From Mesorhizobium ventifaucium (GTDB lineage: Bacteria; Pseudomonadota; Alphaproteobacteria; Rhizobiales; Rhizobiaceae): a stretch of 64,000 bases of DNA. Below are positions 11,267 through 17,193 of this stretch, in pieces. The stretch is from NCBI RefSeq assembly GCF_935822925.1, contig NZ_CAKXZS010000015.1, positions 1-64,000 on the forward strand, given 5' to 3'. Below the pieces are notes generated by a model that was not told where the DNA came from, searched no databases, and saw nothing but the letters and a program-made list of their open reading frames with translations. The translations under genes and the position numbers were made by a program. How positions within the stretch are numbered: the first letter of the stretch is position 1; every line of letters begins with the position of its first letter.

Positions 11267-11342
11267 GCCCTTGTAGCTCAGCTGGTAGAGCAGCGGTTTT
11301 GTAAACCGAAGGTCGGCGGTTCGATTCCGTCCGGGGGCACCA
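11267..11342 (+). tRNA. tRNA-Thr (anticodon UGU)
   Basis: A 76-nt cloverleaf starting GCCCTTGTAGCTCAGCTGGT with loop TTTGTAA (anticodon TGT), acceptor pairing GCCCTTG/CGGGGGC and encoded CCA. Its 3' end, 11324-11343, is repeated almost exactly at 15616-15634, marking it as the integration site of a genomic island. Confidence 0.95.
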
Positions 11343-11757
11343 GTTAATCTGGAAAATCGACATAAAATCAATCGGTTAGGGATTTCCAGATTGGCGCTTT
11401 ACACACTTCAATATACACTTAGATCGTCGCTGGACGCCCATTTGCAGCCGCCCGCCAGAGAAGGGTCGCGCCATGACGGAGCCTCAGCGCTTCCCGCAGG
11501 TAGCTTATCCGTATCTGCTCCACCGCTCCCCTGTCCGCTTCCGGCAAGCCCTCCAGGTCTTGCAAGCGCACCAACGCCTAGAACGATTAGCCCCGAGAGC
11601 GGTCGCGGCATCCGCCGTGACGGCATTCTTCTACCGGCGCGCTTTCGCCAGCGGTCAGCCTGATTGGCGCCTTGATAACGGTGGTCTTTGCCCACGCCCT
11701 CTCTCCCGAAGAGAGAATGCGTCCATTGCGGAGGAGAGTCCAGCTTTGCGGCGTGGC
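11343..11757. other. Gene-poor stretch at the left end of the island
   Basis: Frames of about 90-107 codons exist on both strands but none has a recognisable domain, a good ribosome-binding site or protein-like composition. I see no integrase remnant here. Confidence 0.5.
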
Positions 11758-11916
11758 TTACGCGGTCTGAAGCTGTTCGACAGAACTCGAGCCTGACATT
11801 GCAATCAACCGTCTAGCGGCGAATGCGGCCAAAACCATGAAGGCAGCCGTGACGGTAAGGAAGATCGAGGACGCGAGAACAGTCCCGTCCTGCACATAAC
11901 AACTTGCGAATTCCAT
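11758..11916 (-). CDS. Possible small membrane protein (52 aa)
   Basis: A short minus-strand frame reads MEFASCYVQDGTVLASSIFL, then a hydrophobic run TVTAAFMVLAAFAA and a polar tail ending SSSVEQLQTA. AGGGG lies about 10 bases upstream of the ATG. The single membrane span and ribosome-binding site are the only support; no family is recognised. Confidence 0.4.
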   Translation of the reverse strand: MEFASCYVQDGTVLASSIFLTVTAAFMVLAAFAARRLIAMSGSSSVEQLQTA

Positions 11917-12104
11917 AACGCTCTACCCCTTCAAACCCACCTGACAGCTTGCATGATGATCCTGCTTCGGGCGAAATACAAGCGCGTGCTAATGCACGAT
12001 GACGCGAGAGTGAGCCGAATTAGTTTCCTTCGCCCAAGACCCAAGCCGAAGCGCCCGCTCCCGCAGCGCTTGCGCCGTCATATCAGATAAGCCTAATGTA
12101 ATTC

Positions 12105-12461
12105 ATGATCTGGCCATTTAGGGGGCGCGGCTGCGCATTCGGGTTGGGCGCTAGCATCGCCGCAGCCTGCGCTTTCGGAACTCCTTTGGCATCGGCACAT
12201 GATGACTGGTACGAAAAACAGTGCTGCCATGACGAGCATTGCGAGCCGATGGCAGACGGTGCCGTTCGCGAAACAAGCAAGGGCTTCAAGGTGCCGTCAG
12301 GCGAATTGCTGCGTTACGCGGACGGCAGGGTGCGTCAGTCGCACGACATGCGTTTTCATTGGTGCCATGCCCAAAAAGTAACGGCAGGCCGGCATCGTGA
12401 ATTCCCATCTCGCAACCCTGACATTACGATCTGCCTCTACGTGCCGCCTAAGTCATTCTGA
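12105..12461 (+). CDS. Secreted Cys-rich protein, paralogue of 26557-26943
   Basis: A 118-residue protein with a signal peptide (GLGASIAAACAFGTPLASA) followed by HDDWYEKQCCHDEHCEPM, a middle segment SGELLRYADGRVRQSHDMRF and the end HWCHAQK...DITICLYVPPKSF. The paired Cys-Cys, the later Cys residues and the ICLYVPP ending recur in the protein at 26557-26943 (SCCSGYDC...HWCSV...ICLFVPPSSF). The pattern suggests disulphide bonds in the periplasm. The function is unknown; I do not recognise a named domain. Confidence 0.75.
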   Translation: MIWPFRGRGCAFGLGASIAAACAFGTPLASAHDDWYEKQCCHDEHCEPMADGAVRETSKGFKVPSGELLRYADGRVRQSHDMRFHWCHAQKVTAGRHREFPSRNPDITICLYVPPKSF

Positions 12462-12677
12462 CGTTCGGTCACGGGCTCACTGCTGCTTCGCGTGGGTAGC
12501 GCAGGGTATCCTGATTGGAGACGCACAATCCAGTCCAGCGCGTCTGAAGCGACATCCTCGTGGTCGGTCAACTCGCTCACCTAGGCTACAATTGGGCGTC
12601 GCTTATGCGAGAAGCCCGCTTTCTGGTTCGGAAACGCTAGTCGCGAGGTGCCCGGGCATGGGCGAGCCGTCTGACGT

Positions 12678-12872
12678 TCAGCGGCTCAGCCTTCCGACGG
12701 TCTCAATGATGGCTTTGGCCAGCGCTTCGCCCTCATAGACCGGCTCGGGACCATAGAGCAGCAAGACAGCTTCTTCGCTCGGCAACACGCCAGCGGGGCA
12801 GGTCTGTTCGATCGCCATGCGAACCAGTTTGAGGGCGGCCCAGGCGTTGCGGATGCTATCTTGGGCTTGCAT
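12678..12872 (-). CDS. Small protein of unknown function (64 aa)
   Basis: A 64-residue, mostly helical soluble protein starting MQAQDSIRNAWAALKLVRMA and ending EGEALAKAIIETVGRLSR. The ATG at 12872 follows GAGGAAGC, a good ribosome-binding site, and is preferred over the start at 12920. No family is recognised. Confidence 0.55.
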   Translation of the reverse strand: MQAQDSIRNAWAALKLVRMAIEQTCPAGVLPSEEAVLLLYGPEPVYEGEALAKAIIETVGRLSR

Positions 12873-13063
12873 GCTTCCTCGCTGAGATGGTCGGCCCGAC
12901 AGCCGCTGCGGAGTAGGCAACCGACCGCCGGGCCTAACCGGCGGGGGTTTGGGGCGGTACGCCGGCTAGTTCTAACATAAGCCTCTCATGCATCATTGCT
13001 AATTTAGTAAAATGGTCACGTTCCGTTCCCCTGGCTGTCAAATCGGATGAGCCTAGAGTCAAT

Positions 13064-13954
13064 TTGGTGGCTAAACGAGTGAGTGCCGGCGGCCGGCTTG
13101 AGTTCATTCCTCCGATGATGCCGACCTTGGTAGCCAAGCCGCCCCAAGGCGATGACTGGATGCATGAAGCCAAATTCGACGGCTACCGCTCCCAGATCAT
13201 CATCTACGCCGACGGTGTGCGGATCTTCACTCGCCGCGGACTAGACTGGACATCGAAGTACCGCGATCTCGCGGCGGCGGCCAATACGCTGGACGTCGAG
13301 AATGCCATCATCGATGGCGAAGTCGTCGTCTTGAATGACGCTGGCCTTTCGGATTTTGCCGCGCTGCGCAAGGCAATCACCAGGCGCCAGCACGACCTCT
13401 ATTTCGTCGCGTTCGATCTGCTGCATCTCAATGGCCACGACTTGCGCGACATGGCGCTTGAGGATCGGCGGGAAATCCTGGCCGGCCTTATAGGGTCCGA
13501 CAGCCGCATCCAGTTCAGCGAGACAATGCCAGGCGAGGCTAATGCGATCTATCATCTGATCGACGCGGCCGGCCTGGAACGGATGGTATCGAAGCGTCGA
13601 GACAGCAAATACCGCAGCGGGCCGACTACCAATTGGCTGAAAACAAAATCCCTCACCGAAAGCGAGTTTGAACTTCTCGGAGTTGAACGCGAGCGGGGCA
13701 AGCCAGCCTTCGCTCTGATGGCCGAGCCGGCGAGCCGCAAATATGTCGGCAGTGCCTTCGTCAGCGTCAATCGCGAGATGCGGGAGCGGCTGTGGAAGCG
13801 TGTCCAGGAACGCGCCGGGCCACCGCCCAAGGACATGCCAAAGCTGCCAGCAACGCAGTGGGTCAAGCCGGGCATCAAAGCCCGCGTAAAGCATCTAAGG
13901 GGCGAGGAAGACCTTCGCCACGCATCGTTGCAGGGTTTGTGGGACGAGGGATAA
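13064..13954 (+). CDS. ATP-dependent DNA ligase (LigC/LigD ligase-domain type)
   Basis: A 296-residue stand-alone ligase with the nucleotidyltransferase and OB domains but no polymerase or phosphoesterase domain. Motif I HEAKFDGYR (lysine nucleophile, about residue 37), motif III-like FVAFDLLHLNG, a motif IV-like LERMVSKRRDSKYRSG, motif V WLKTK and the C-terminal KHLRGEEDLRHASLQG are visible. Related enzymes seal breaks in bacterial non-homologous end joining with Ku, but no ku gene is in this window. Motif IV reads LERMVSK where relatives have LEGIVSK, a notable change. The TTG at 13064 gives the usual N-terminus. It lies within the tRNA-Thr island. Confidence 0.88.
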   Translation: MVAKRVSAGGRLEFIPPMMPTLVAKPPQGDDWMHEAKFDGYRSQIIIYADGVRIFTRRGLDWTSKYRDLAAAANTLDVENAIIDGEVVVLNDAGLSDFAALRKAITRRQHDLYFVAFDLLHLNGHDLRDMALEDRREILAGLIGSDSRIQFSETMPGEANAIYHLIDAAGLERMVSKRRDSKYRSGPTTNWLKTKSLTESEFELLGVERERGKPAFALMAEPASRKYVGSAFVSVNREMRERLWKRVQERAGPPPKDMPKLPATQWVKPGIKARVKHLRGEEDLRHASLQGLWDEG

Positions 13955-13963
13955 TCGGGACCT

Positions 13964-14200
13964 CTAGATCCCATACATCAGGGCAATGAAGAATACCGGT
14001 GCAAAGATCAGGAAGATCGCCATTACTATGATCACGGCCAGGGCCAGGCGCTCTGTTCGCCTGACGATTGCAACGACGTCGTCGTCGCTCGACGAAACAA
14101 GATCAACCACCGACCAATCTGTTGGGTCAGGAGCTTGATTGTCATTGGCGGGTCGGCTTGCGACCGCATCGACATTCTGTTTGCTCTGGATAATGGTCAC
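13964..14200 (-). CDS. Small membrane protein (78 aa), unknown function
   Basis: The frame from the GTG at 14200 reads TIIQSKQNVDAVASRPANDN, a polar Asp-rich middle and one C-terminal membrane span LALAVIIVMAIFLIFAPVFF. GGAAAG lies just upstream of the GTG. The layout (cytosolic head, one C-terminal span) resembles tail-anchored small proteins, but no family is recognised. It converges with the ligase gene, ending 9 bases from it. Confidence 0.5.
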   Translation of the reverse strand: MTIIQSKQNVDAVASRPANDNQAPDPTDWSVVDLVSSSDDDVVAIVRRTERLALAVIIVMAIFLIFAPVFFIALMYGI

Positions 14201-14457
14201 AGTTCTTTCCGCCGTTAGGGTGCCACATCGGGTGCCCGCCGACGAGTATACAGCGGGCAGCCCGAACCGCCGATGAAGGGACTTTGCTCGGCGGCCAAAT
14301 ACCAATCCTTTGCCAAGATCTTGGTTGCCAGCCTCAGCCCTCTGTCTTTAACGCACAGACTTCAGTCTTACTGCGTCATGGACCATAGCCCGGCGCCGGA
14401 ACTAAGTGCCCGCCGGTCCCGTTGCCGACCAGTGATAATTCAGAATAGGAGATAGTC

Positions 14458-14772
14458 ATGGCTGACGGTCCCACCGTTGTTAACTCAGGCGGAAATGGCG
14501 CCGGCACCGCTGTCGCCGTCGTTCTCGCAATTATCGCAATCGTGATCCTACTGTTGTTCACCGGCGTTATCAACATCAACGGCGGGGGCACTGGAAAGGA
14601 CGTCGACGTAAAGGTTGAAGCGCCTACGGTCGAAGCGCCCAACGTCGAAGCGCCAGCTGCGTCCGCTCCGGCTGAGCCGAGCGCACCTGCCCCAGCCGCG
14701 CCCGCTCCGGCAGAACCGGCCGCACCTGCTCCGGCAGCACCCGCTCCGGCAGCACCTGCTAACGGCGGCTGA
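14458..14772 (+). CDS. Membrane-anchored Pro/Ala-rich repeat protein
   Basis: A 104-residue protein: a short polar start, one membrane span AVAVVLAIIAIVILLLF (about residues 18-34), then a tail made of Ala-Pro-Ala-Glu repeats (EAPTVEAPNVEAPAASAPAE and similar). The tail is probably an extended periplasmic linker. AGGAG lies 7 bases before the ATG. The DNA of the tail is itself repetitive, so length may vary between strains. Function unknown. Confidence 0.78.
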   Translation: MADGPTVVNSGGNGAGTAVAVVLAIIAIVILLLFTGVININGGGTGKDVDVKVEAPTVEAPNVEAPAASAPAEPSAPAPAAPAPAEPAAPAPAAPAPAAPANGG

Positions 14773-14923
14773 TTGTGACATCGGATATCGGGCCCGGCGG
14801 GATGCGCTTCCGGGCTTGATGAAAACGTTGAGGGCCGTCCACACTCCGCAAAGCGGCCCACGCAACGGAAAGCCGTTCGACGGAGTTTCAATCAGTTGCG
14901 GGACCTGCAAAGAAGGATCGCTT

Positions 14924-15202
14924 ATGAAGATGCTCGTTACCCTCGTGGCCGGCATTGCAATGGCCGGATGCATCAGCGTGGCCGCTGCCGATCCGTGGAA
15001 GGACGAGAGCGGTCATGGCAAATGGCAGGGCCGCTACCAAGACGAAGATGATTATGAGCGGAAGCGCGAACGCTACAGCAACAAAAAAGAATTCCGGCGC
15101 GGCAATTGCAAGATTGAGCGCAAGTGGGAAGGCGATGAATACAAGGAAGAGGTGAAGTGCAAGCGCGGCTTCAGGAGGCCGCGTTACATCTATCGCTATT
15201 GA
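14924..15202 (+). CDS. Exported highly charged small protein
   Basis: A 92-residue protein with a signal sequence MKMLVTLVAGIAMAGC, whose last residues could form a lipobox, followed by a charged stretch rich in Lys, Arg, Glu and Tyr (WQGRYQDEDDYERKRERY) and a pair of cysteines in GNCKIERKW and EVKCKRGF. AAGGA precedes the ATG. It resembles small rhizobial periplasmic proteins with no assigned role. The ATG at 14924 is chosen because the longer frame upstream overlaps the previous gene in Pro/Ala-coding DNA. Confidence 0.65.
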   Translation: MKMLVTLVAGIAMAGCISVAAADPWKDESGHGKWQGRYQDEDDYERKRERYSNKKEFRRGNCKIERKWEGDEYKEEVKCKRGFRRPRYIYRY

Positions 15203-15244
15203 ACCCAGACGCCTTCGGAAGGGCGGCCGGCCAACGCGGATCAG

Positions 15245-15569
15245 TGCGCCTGGCGGCCGCCGCGGGCATTCTGGCAGTCGAGGCTTACCACATGGGGATG
15301 GCACGATCGTCGCTTTACCGAATGGGCGAGGATGCCTGGAACGCGGCCAATGCGGTTTCCGACGCCCGTGACAAGATTGATGGATCCGGAAGACAAGGAC
15401 CAAGGCATCCGATTGGAGGACAAGGCCAATATCGCTCCATCGACCCCGGATGCGATCGCACTCACCAGGACACCGTAAGAAGTGCTTCGGATCGTCTATC
15501 TGACCGATCAGTCCGGCGTCAGCAAGGGCGGATTTGAACGGAATGAACGGAACGCTCAAAAGCACCTGA
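15245..15569 (+). pseudogene. Ferritin-like domain protein, truncated and frameshifted
   Basis: The first frame reads AAAAGILAVEAYHMGMARSS then LYRMGEDAWNAANAVSDARD, the helix-rich C-terminal half of a secreted ferritin-like (DUF4439/ferritin_2-like) protein. The next part, DKDQGIRLEDKANIAPSTPD and then EVLRIVYLTDQSGVSKGGF, is in a second frame with an in-frame TAA near 15476-15478, and the end NGMNGTLKST is in a third. The N-terminal half is missing. It is a decayed fragment at the right end of the island. Confidence 0.7.
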
Positions 15570-15615
15570 GCGGACTGCAAACGAGGCGATCGACGCGTGC
15601 TACTGGCAATCAGGA

Positions 15616-15634
15616 ATTCCGTCCGGGGCACCAG
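15616..15634 (+). repeat. Putative att site: copy of the tRNA-Thr 3' end
   Basis: ATTCCGTCCGGGGCACCAG matches tRNA-Thr 11324-11343 except for one missing G in the G-run. It includes the encoded CCA. Confidence 0.7.
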
Positions 15635-15740
15635 CATACAGCTTCTTGTGATAACCTGCCGGGATCGGTGCTCATCCCCGATTTCCACAGGCCGGGGCCA
15701 TAGCCCGTCAGCTTCAATGCATATATTCGCTAGCGGACCA

Positions 15741-15809
15741 CAGATATTCCCCTTGTGGAACCAAAGGTATTCCGTAGTGGAAACCACAGGTATTCCGTAG
15801 TGGAAACCA
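15741..15809 (+). promoter_or_regulatory. Three tandem 23-bp repeats with TTCC-N5/6-GGAA palindromes
   Basis: Three adjacent 23-bp units (15741-15763, 15764-15786, 15787-15809). The last two differ by one base and read AGGTATTCCGTAGTGGAAAC; the first is diverged. Each carries TTCC and GGAA separated by 5 or 6 bases, a dyad like a transcription-factor site. They end 12 bases before the start of the small membrane protein at 15822 and could be operators for it. Confidence 0.6.
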
Positions 15810-15821
15810 GAGGAGTCGCCG

Positions 15822-16067
15822 TTGGAGCAGAAACGCACGATCGCCCCCTTAATTGGTGGCATGTATGGTGGTCTTGCTGCCCTCGCGTTCGCGTTCGGTT
15901 TCCGCTTCCTGATGATTCCCGATCCCGATCCGACCTCGCAAGCAACGATAGCCCTTGCGGGAGTGGCCTTTTCGATCTGTTTCAACCTGGCCTTCCTTCG
16001 CGAGCATCGACGCCAGATTGCTGCCGCCAGAGAATTTCTAAGCCGTCCAAGATCGTATCAGCAGTAA
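15822..16067 (+). CDS. Small membrane protein (81 aa) behind tandem repeats
   Basis: Starts at a TTG preceded by GAGGAG. The protein begins EQKRTIAPLIGGMYGGLAAL, has two hydrophobic segments (AALAFAFGFRFLMI and ATIALAGVAFSICFNLAFL) and a basic tail REHRRQIAAAREFLSRPRSY. Two membrane spans with both ends in the cytosol are likely. No family is recognised. Its position immediately after three tandem palindromic repeats suggests tight control. Confidence 0.6.
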   Translation: MEQKRTIAPLIGGMYGGLAALAFAFGFRFLMIPDPDPTSQATIALAGVAFSICFNLAFLREHRRQIAAAREFLSRPRSYQQ

Positions 16068-16267
16068 TCCCCGCGTTCGCAAAGCAAAGCGCCCCCGCCT
16101 CCGGTCCGGCGCATCAGAACCAATGGATGCAACAGGGATGCGGACCGGCATCTCCCGCTCCCGGCCATTTAATGCCATTCGATTAAAATGCCCATGTGTA
16201 TATTAGCAATCGCTCAATTTAGCGCGCTGACAATGTCCGGGCGGTGGGCTAAACAACGGGTGGTGTC

Positions 16268-16465
16268 ATGCGAAGCGACTTCGCTGCAGCGCGCGAGCTC
16301 TTGGAGTGTGCCCAAAACCGGCTCTGCGGCATGGACGAAACGAGCCAACGCGTCAGCGAGGCATTGGACTCGCTGATTGAAGAAATAGCCATCGCGGAAT
16401 TCCGTAAGGCGCCCTTGACCGTCGTGCCGTTTCCACGTGCGCGGCCACCCAGGCATGCTCGGTAG
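16268..16465 (+). CDS. Small protein of unknown function (65 aa)
   Basis: Reads MRSDFAAARELLECAQNRLC followed by an acidic helical segment (DETSQRVSEALDSLIEEIAI) and a Pro/Arg-rich tail. The composition is protein-like, with GGTGG before the ATG. Such short helical proteins are common in rhizobial accessory DNA. Function unknown. Confidence 0.45.
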   Translation: MRSDFAAARELLECAQNRLCGMDETSQRVSEALDSLIEEIAIAEFRKAPLTVVPFPRARPPRHAR

Positions 16466-16578
16466 AACACCGCCGATGTGGTCGACAGCGGAAGTGCTCC
16501 ACGCGCCACCAGCGGAATTGAACCTGCGCGATTGCGGCTTAGCGGCGTCCGGGCCACCAGAAATCCCATCGGGAGCCC

Positions 16579-17193
16579 TCACACCGCGATCGCCGCCACC
16601 AGAATCCGGTTCTGCCTTCGTATCGCGGCGCGCAGTTCGGCAATCCTCGCCTCGTCGCGCTTCACGAACTCGATGAACATCATGTTCATGTTGTTGAACA
16701 CCAGTTCGCCGAGCGCCTGCCCGTCGATATCCCGGCGGACCAGGCCGATCGCCTGCAGCCGGGCGATCAGCGCGCGGATCTGCTCCGTCAGCGCCCGGTC
16801 GAGCGCTGTGTAAGCCTGGCCGAACGGGCTGTCGGGCAGTTGCGTCGAGATCGCCATCGCCTGCCGCCACATCCCCTTGCTGAGATAATGCAGCGAATGC
16901 TCGATATAGATGCCGAGCAGCGTGTCGAGCGCATCGCCGACATTGGCCGGCGGGTTGGCGACGACGCCCTGCCCGGCATTGAGCACCTCATGGACCTCCA
17001 TCGAGACGATGGCGCCGAGGATGTCGCCCTTGTTCTGGTAATAATTGTAGATCGTACCGACCGAGACTTCCGCCTGCGCCGCTATCGTCTCGATCTTGGC
17101 GCCTTCATAGCCGGTGTCGCGAAAAAGCGCCGCCGCCGCCTCGATGATGCGGCGATGCCGATCCGCCTTTTGCCTTGCCCGCAATCCGCTCAT
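16579..17193 (-). CDS. TetR/AcrR-family regulator
   Basis: A 204-residue repressor-type protein. The N-terminal helix-turn-helix domain is complete: RRIIEAAAALFRDTGYEGAK (about 14-33), then IETIAAQAEVSVGTIYNYYQ (about 34-53) and NKGDILGAIV. The C-terminal ligand domain is diverged as usual. It is divergent from the ABC transporter operon starting at 17285, with two palindromes between them, so it most likely controls that operon and itself. The ligand is unknown. Confidence 0.9.
   Translation of the reverse strand: MSGLRARQKADRHRRIIEAAAALFRDTGYEGAKIETIAAQAEVSVGTIYNYYQNKGDILGAIVSMEVHEVLNAGQGVVANPPANVGDALDTLLGIYIEHSLHYLSKGMWRQAMAISTQLPDSPFGQAYTALDRALTEQIRALIARLQAIGLVRRDIDGQALGELVFNNMNMMFIEFVKRDEARIAELRAAIRRQNRILVAAIAV

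Follow-up and report, generated by a model that had tools for sequence, protein, structure and literature searches.

A probable remnant of an integrative element at the 3' end of a tRNA-Thr(TGT) gene in Mesorhizobium ventifaucium

We analyzed a stretch of 64,000 nucleotides from Mesorhizobium ventifaucium (the window), which carries an intact tRNA-Thr gene with the anticodon TGT at 11267-11342 on the forward strand, as identified by ARAGORN. This gene or part of it, together with its upstream flank, is matched in all 146 genomes of the genus, the window's own included (among the matches listed). The 3' end of the tRNA plus one further base, ATTCCGTCCGGGGGCACCAG (11324-11343, 20 bases), recurs on the same strand as ATTCCGTCCGGGGCACCAG (15616-15634, 19 bases). 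The original prediction had described such a repeat with a single base difference; the repeat is present, and the difference is the deletion of one G from a G run. We assign the left copy as attL core, based on direct reading, a repeat test, and the same core at the islands of relatives, and the right copy as attR core, one G short, based on direct reading, the repeat test, and a search of the own assembly. No third copy of the core with three edits or fewer was found on either strand of the 64 kb, in which just attL and attR match, and 3.6 Mb of first-order Markov sequence contained no core match at up to one edit and one at up to three. The 6.7 Mb of the own assembly contain one exact copy of CCGTCCGGGGCACCA and one copy with a single mismatch; the control pattern, CCGTCCGGGGCACCA read backwards, gave one match. 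An att-like repeat that recurs widely had been named as an argument against an island; the exact repeat is unique in its own genome.

To the right of attR, the segment 15635-16545 (forward strand) is a flank found in the clade described below, with frames of 81 aa (15822-16067) and 65 aa (16268-16465), and is possibly an older insertion layer. Adjoining it is CGTCCGGGCCACCAG (16546-16560, forward strand), the only further match at up to two edits in the window and a possible third, decayed core. This weak site is suggestive only, given that random sequence yields six such matches per 3.0 Mb. The gene of a TetR-family regulator (16579-17193, reverse strand) marks the chromosomal right boundary.

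The left part of the 4.3 kb between the two att cores begins with a fragment of accessory sequence (11562-11743, without strand assignment) that is also present elsewhere in the genome and the genus: contig C34 of the same genome bears an 83% copy of 11562-11759, and the genus matches listed include repeated matches at 203-384. It is followed by a 52-aa frame with one hydrophobic stretch (11758-11916, reverse strand), recognized by its translation and with similar genus DNA near 399-634 among the matches listed. A 118-aa frame with a signal-peptide-like start and without a known family lies at 12105-12461 (forward strand); an 87% identical protein is encoded, in inverted orientation, in the stretch behind the same tRNA-Thr in the related genome G037. 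An 80-aa frame (12678-12920, reverse strand) showed no Pfam family above the cut-off and has similar DNA elsewhere in the genome and, among the matches listed, in the genus. Because its pieces occur singly elsewhere in the genome and the genus (for the latter, among the matches listed), the left part looks like a patchwork drawn from the accessory pool.

The next gene encodes a stand-alone ATP-dependent DNA ligase of 296 aa (13064-13954, forward strand, open frame), and the PF01068 domain (E 3e-26) agrees with this earlier reading. The own genome contains 17 whole or partial ligase matches including the window copy, which is therefore not a singleton and has a 91% paralog on contig C1, and at least one match was found in each of the 146 genomes (among the matches listed). 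At the level of titles and abstracts, a literature search returned nothing on point on the many ligase copies in Mesorhizobium. The low Ka/Ks values of the window ligase against three kin (0.11-0.17) tell more about the past of the family than about the condition of this copy today. The window ligase reads LERMVSKR, a Gly-to-Arg change in the LEG(M/I) stretch, while LEG is kept in the five own paralogs examined and in the copy of G040 (LEGMVSKR, LEGIVSKR, or LEGMMSKR). The change falls into a region which we take to be ligase motif IV, presumably E-G-x-V-x-K. The ligase was also considered as the mark of an NHEJ operon, a reading that was dropped on finding no Ku family match among the island frames scanned. 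The window ligase should not be read as a core gene, and the island reading explains the gene-poor stretch.

Three small frames follow the ligase. The first encodes 113 aa with a C-terminal hydrophobic stretch (13964-14305, reverse strand) and belongs to the part of the remnant common to G034, G040, and G087. The second is a Pro/Ala-rich frame of 104 aa with an N-terminal hydrophobic stretch (14458-14772, forward strand), common to G034 and partly to G087; its weak PHROGs match to a Zot-like family (E 0.0038) covers the Pro/Ala-rich part and is probably compositional. The third encodes 92 aa with a signal-peptide-like start (14924-15202, forward strand) and is common to G034 and shortened in G040. 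Judged from their hydrophobic stretches rather than by a predictor, the small frames may encode exported or membrane proteins. Next to attR lies a broken ferritin-like gene (PF13668; 15249-15571, forward strand), of which the C-terminal part with indels is left. The Ferritin_2 match (E 0.0022, 18.6 bits) is below the Pfam cut-off of 24.7, and the piece corresponds to the C-terminal end of a 287-aa frame on contig C46 of the same genome, with 78% DNA identity and one 1-base as well as one 5-base gap. The gene had been called broken from its letters, and the comparison with C46 agrees with this.

As originally noted, the window lacks an integrase. The window frames scanned showed neither an integrase family nor any similarity to one, two profiles detected no integrase fragments in the six frames of the window, and tblastn of the window, queried with four site integrases, yielded background only (best island match, E 9.8). 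No relaxase or conjugation family was found among the window frames scanned. A search of the own genome with the G134-type integrase gave two weak partial matches (26% and 31%), and the Arm-domain types of G033 and G037, here called P4-type, gave three and four matches with 25-34% identity, several of them nearly full length and one with an internal stop. Hence, with recombinases 25-34% identical, the own genome contains no near kin of the integrases of the site, and the remnant is without a recombinase of its own. The remnant might still be mobilized by a second element that shares its core and inserts next to it, as the anatomy of G040, which is spread over two contigs, would suggest.

Behind the attL core, we noticed a possible recombinase-binding (arm) motif, TAAAATCAATCGGTTAGG (11363-11380, forward strand), by its matrix score. 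The matrix was derived from 14 junctions of 13 other genomes, hand-picked for an AAATCA-like start and excluding the window. With 18.0 bits against 13.3 for the next site, 11363-11380 ranks first on both strands of the 64 kb; a score above 6 was reached by 50 of 5000 random places in the window. Among the 20 junctions above 6 bits, the motif starts 2 bases behind the core in 13, of which 11 belonged to the training set, 20-21 bases behind it in six including the window, and at -1 in one. Its exact form was counted zero to two times per genome in seven genomes (control, 0), and three copies are located away from tRNA-Thr, one of them behind the tRNA-Gln of G054. It was first thought likely that the G134-type integrase uses the motif as its arm site, but this was weakened by low scores at the integrase loci, including -4.9 in G090. 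With -1.3 in both G134 and G027 and 6.0 in G014, the motif cannot be assigned to their integrase. It is possible that 11363-11380 binds a recombinase.

We compared 116 of the 146 loci at this variable site, the window's own and 115 others. A downstream ABC gene has some match in at least 128 of the 146 genomes, not all of them to the orthologue. Its distance from the tRNA ranges from 0.73 to 34 kb in 100 of the 111 genomes entered (both genes on one contig and strand) and is 5.9 kb in the window; some of these gaps are measured from a partial or decayed tRNA match (e.g., in G034, G037, and G033). The other 11 genomes gave no gap, with the flanks on different contigs in eight, no ABC entry in G004, and opposite strands in G048 and G075. 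DNA matching 15635-16130 is present at the tRNA-Thr site in 15 other genomes, and in seven of these it follows the tRNA directly or almost so. The window match passes through the core and on into the bases after 15634 in G088, G101, G132, and G052; in G098, G055, and G141, it starts at 15669, and 28-49 bases separate it from the tRNA. Such a joining of the tRNA end to the sequence after 15634 had been predicted. The matches are 74-100% identical by piece, and the motif score at these seven junctions was never above -0.2. Several of the seven carry other DNA further right, before TetR; they are empty for the island of the window, not bare. In the remaining eight genomes, other DNA intervenes, or the tRNA lies on a different contig (G145, G040).

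A longer island with an integrase at this site, the other expectation, was found in G014, G134, and G027. These islands share the tRNA-Thr and the 16-base core at the far end with the remnant, but differ in their size (15.7-16.7 kb), a full-length tyrosine integrase adjoining the tRNA, other cargo, and a weak or absent window motif. PF00589 was detected in the integrases of G014 and G134, and that of G027 is 94% identical to the latter. G090 contains a broken integrase of the same family. Arm-domain integrases occupy the site in G033 and G037, with kin of the G033 type in G078, a fragment in G071, and a weak match in G006. The G037 integrase was missed by a regular expression for tyrosine recombinases and is detected by Pfam; a second expression gave nothing. 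A partial core copy within one edit was found at 10 of the 116 loci and a second, longer tRNA-like end at five others, counts that do not include the looser second ends of G017, G033, and G010. At most other fetched loci, no second end could be recognized, so that recognizable islands account for only a minority of the size differences at the site. G037 shows a series of cores, one after another. The inner flank of the window attR is unlike the flank GGATTTGGCCnTTAGCG common to G134, G027, G037, G040, and G090; since this attR is also one base short, the two ends may stem from different elements.

The remnant itself is shared by three of the 115 other fetched genomes (G034, G040, and G087), rather than by most relatives, as would be expected of ordinary gene content. 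It is shorter there than in the window and trimmed differently in each of the three, with 13325-13373 joined to 13941 onward and 88-96% identity by piece. G037 has three stretches in common with the window remnant, and G006 has one. In a tree computed from some 700 bases on one flank, the window, G034, G040, and G087 form a clade (support, 97/90), with G014 next (98/95). In G040, whose tRNA and remnant sit on two contigs, the shared remnant lies between two cores, an intact one in front and a decayed one behind. In G034, the core GACGCCGTCCGGGGGCACCA comes directly after the 92-aa gene, and the right flank comes next. The corresponding place of the window, 15210, shows GACGCCTTCGGAAGGGCGG plus about 400 further bases. 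No intact ancestor with the same cargo was found among the genus matches listed and the 115 other fetched loci.

The empty sites, the integrase-bearing islands of relatives, and a repeat beyond chance support the original prediction of a decayed island at tRNA-Thr(UGU), and we consider it very probable that an integrative element inserted at the 3' end of tRNA-Thr(TGT), later decayed, and left 11343-15634 as its remnant. Site-specific recombination into the 3' end of the gene would have kept the tRNA complete and put a displaced copy of that end at the far border, as the empty and occupied sites of relatives show. It would have entered, or been kept in, the ancestor of the four-species clade. 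Its recombinase and most of its genes would then have been lost by separate deletions in each lineage; the deletions are seen in the kin, and their order is our reconstruction. What would remain in the window are both att cores, the possible binding motif, the open ligase gene, the small frames, and the broken ferritin-like gene.

The stretch fits best as a CIME-like remnant, flanked by att cores and devoid of an integrase, at a hotspot of integration; remnants of this type are already known. CIMEs are defined as att-flanked, devoid of integration and transfer genes, and located at the end of a target gene (PMC5704250, PMC7563491). The remnant resembles this description: it lies between two candidate att sites, whose cores are both present, with attR one base short, and it has no integrase, no relaxase or conjugation family in the frames scanned, a position at the end of its target gene, and relatives in tandem with other elements. 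For the remnant, a conjugative or mobilizable ancestor, excision, and transfer are hypothetical. The tRNA islands of the Islander database are delimited by a regenerated tRNA gene and a displaced fragment (PMC4383910). The end marks of the remnant are alike, with a direct repeat at the far border and empty sites in seven relatives, but an internal integrase gene is absent; therefore, it is filed as a remnant and not as an intact island. In the same genus, IMEMsp.M2A.F.02-2, an integrative mobilizable element of 40,024 bp, also adjoins a tRNA-Thr (PMC8627217). It differs from the remnant in its size and in being mobilizable, and its tRNA-Thr may be a different one.

The stretch could also consist of two or three elements in tandem, an older one ending near 15210, a second from the ferritin piece to attR, and a third and oldest one at 15635-16560. 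We give this a considerable chance, somewhat short of even. It would accommodate the core that G034 has right after the 92-aa gene, where the window carries its 400 extra bases, as well as the weak third core at 16546-16560, the serial cores of G037, and the core preceding the G040 remnant. However, the window stretch at 15210 is too unlike the core to count as one, and the deletion ends of G040 and G087 lie elsewhere. Plain drift of intergenic DNA, the second tRNA end being a coincidence, would be in line with the partly degenerate, gene-poor content, but is extremely improbable, because the repeat is unexpected by chance and placed where the empty genomes join.

Instead of a decayed autonomous element, the stretch might be a naturally non-autonomous one, moved in trans by recombinases encoded elsewhere. 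The motif stands right after the tRNA without an integrase in the fetched stretch in G022, G049, G060, G054, and G083, and its copy behind tRNA-Gln in G054 as well as own tyrosine recombinases 29-34% identical to the Arm-domain integrases of the site would suit such an origin. We nevertheless regard it as distinctly unlikely: no close relative of the site's integrases was found in the own genome, some of the cargo is broken, and the fetched stretches of G054 and G083 stop at a contig end, so that an integrase at the far end could be missed. A related and improbable idea is that the site hosts a whole family of elements, many without a visible integrase, which share the 18-base motif next to the tRNA core and are moved in trans by a further recombinase. 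The remnant would then be a usable substrate, and the motif at tRNA-Gln would point to more than one target.

Regarding the remnant of a decayed element as the preferred reading, one site in one genus shows the empty state, occupation with an integrase, a broken integrase, a remnant, and one preceded by a core. The tRNA-Thr site is therefore a usable case for timing island decay. A literature search on defence cargo of the tRNA-Thr site turned up, in the records seen, Sinorhizobium work only. We scanned ten proteins chosen for their size against anti-phage defence models and obtained matches in three of nine genomic picks, all encoded at the tRNA-Thr site of relatives, namely to Dsr1 in G054 and G037 and to Old/GajA in G134.

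Behind the same tRNA-Thr in related genomes of the genus, we observed genes matching defence models, namely Dsr1 in G054 (L215:599-4417) and G037 (L047:13730-15718) and Old/GajA in G134 (L058:12282-14003). The first tRNA-Thr copy carries substitutions in G037 (L047:324-416) and G141 (L050:358-447), the second copy being intact in both genomes, and is cut in the anticodon region in G034. In G010, tRNA-Thr is adjoined by one uninterrupted frame of 6041 amino acids (L082:775-18900), which may be a large adhesin.

M. huakuii NBRC 15243 harbors one integrase of the family adjoining tRNA-Thr in G134, together with the N-terminal piece of another (L156:9888 and L159:9888). Both are preceded by a tRNA-Thr 3' end at which ARAGORN called no tRNA, an arrangement that resembles a tandem array or a displaced one. 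On contig C34 of the window's own genome, a match to the Arm-domain integrase type (115779-116927) adjoins a tRNA-like match (117149-117217), which probably represents another tRNA island of this genome.

In the genus Mesorhizobium, stand-alone ATP-dependent ligases are multicopy and accompanied by numerous fragments. Besides the copy in the window (13064-13954), its own genome encodes further stand-alone ligases on contigs C1, C11, C18, C14, and C5, as well as fragments on C56, C30, C31, and C44.
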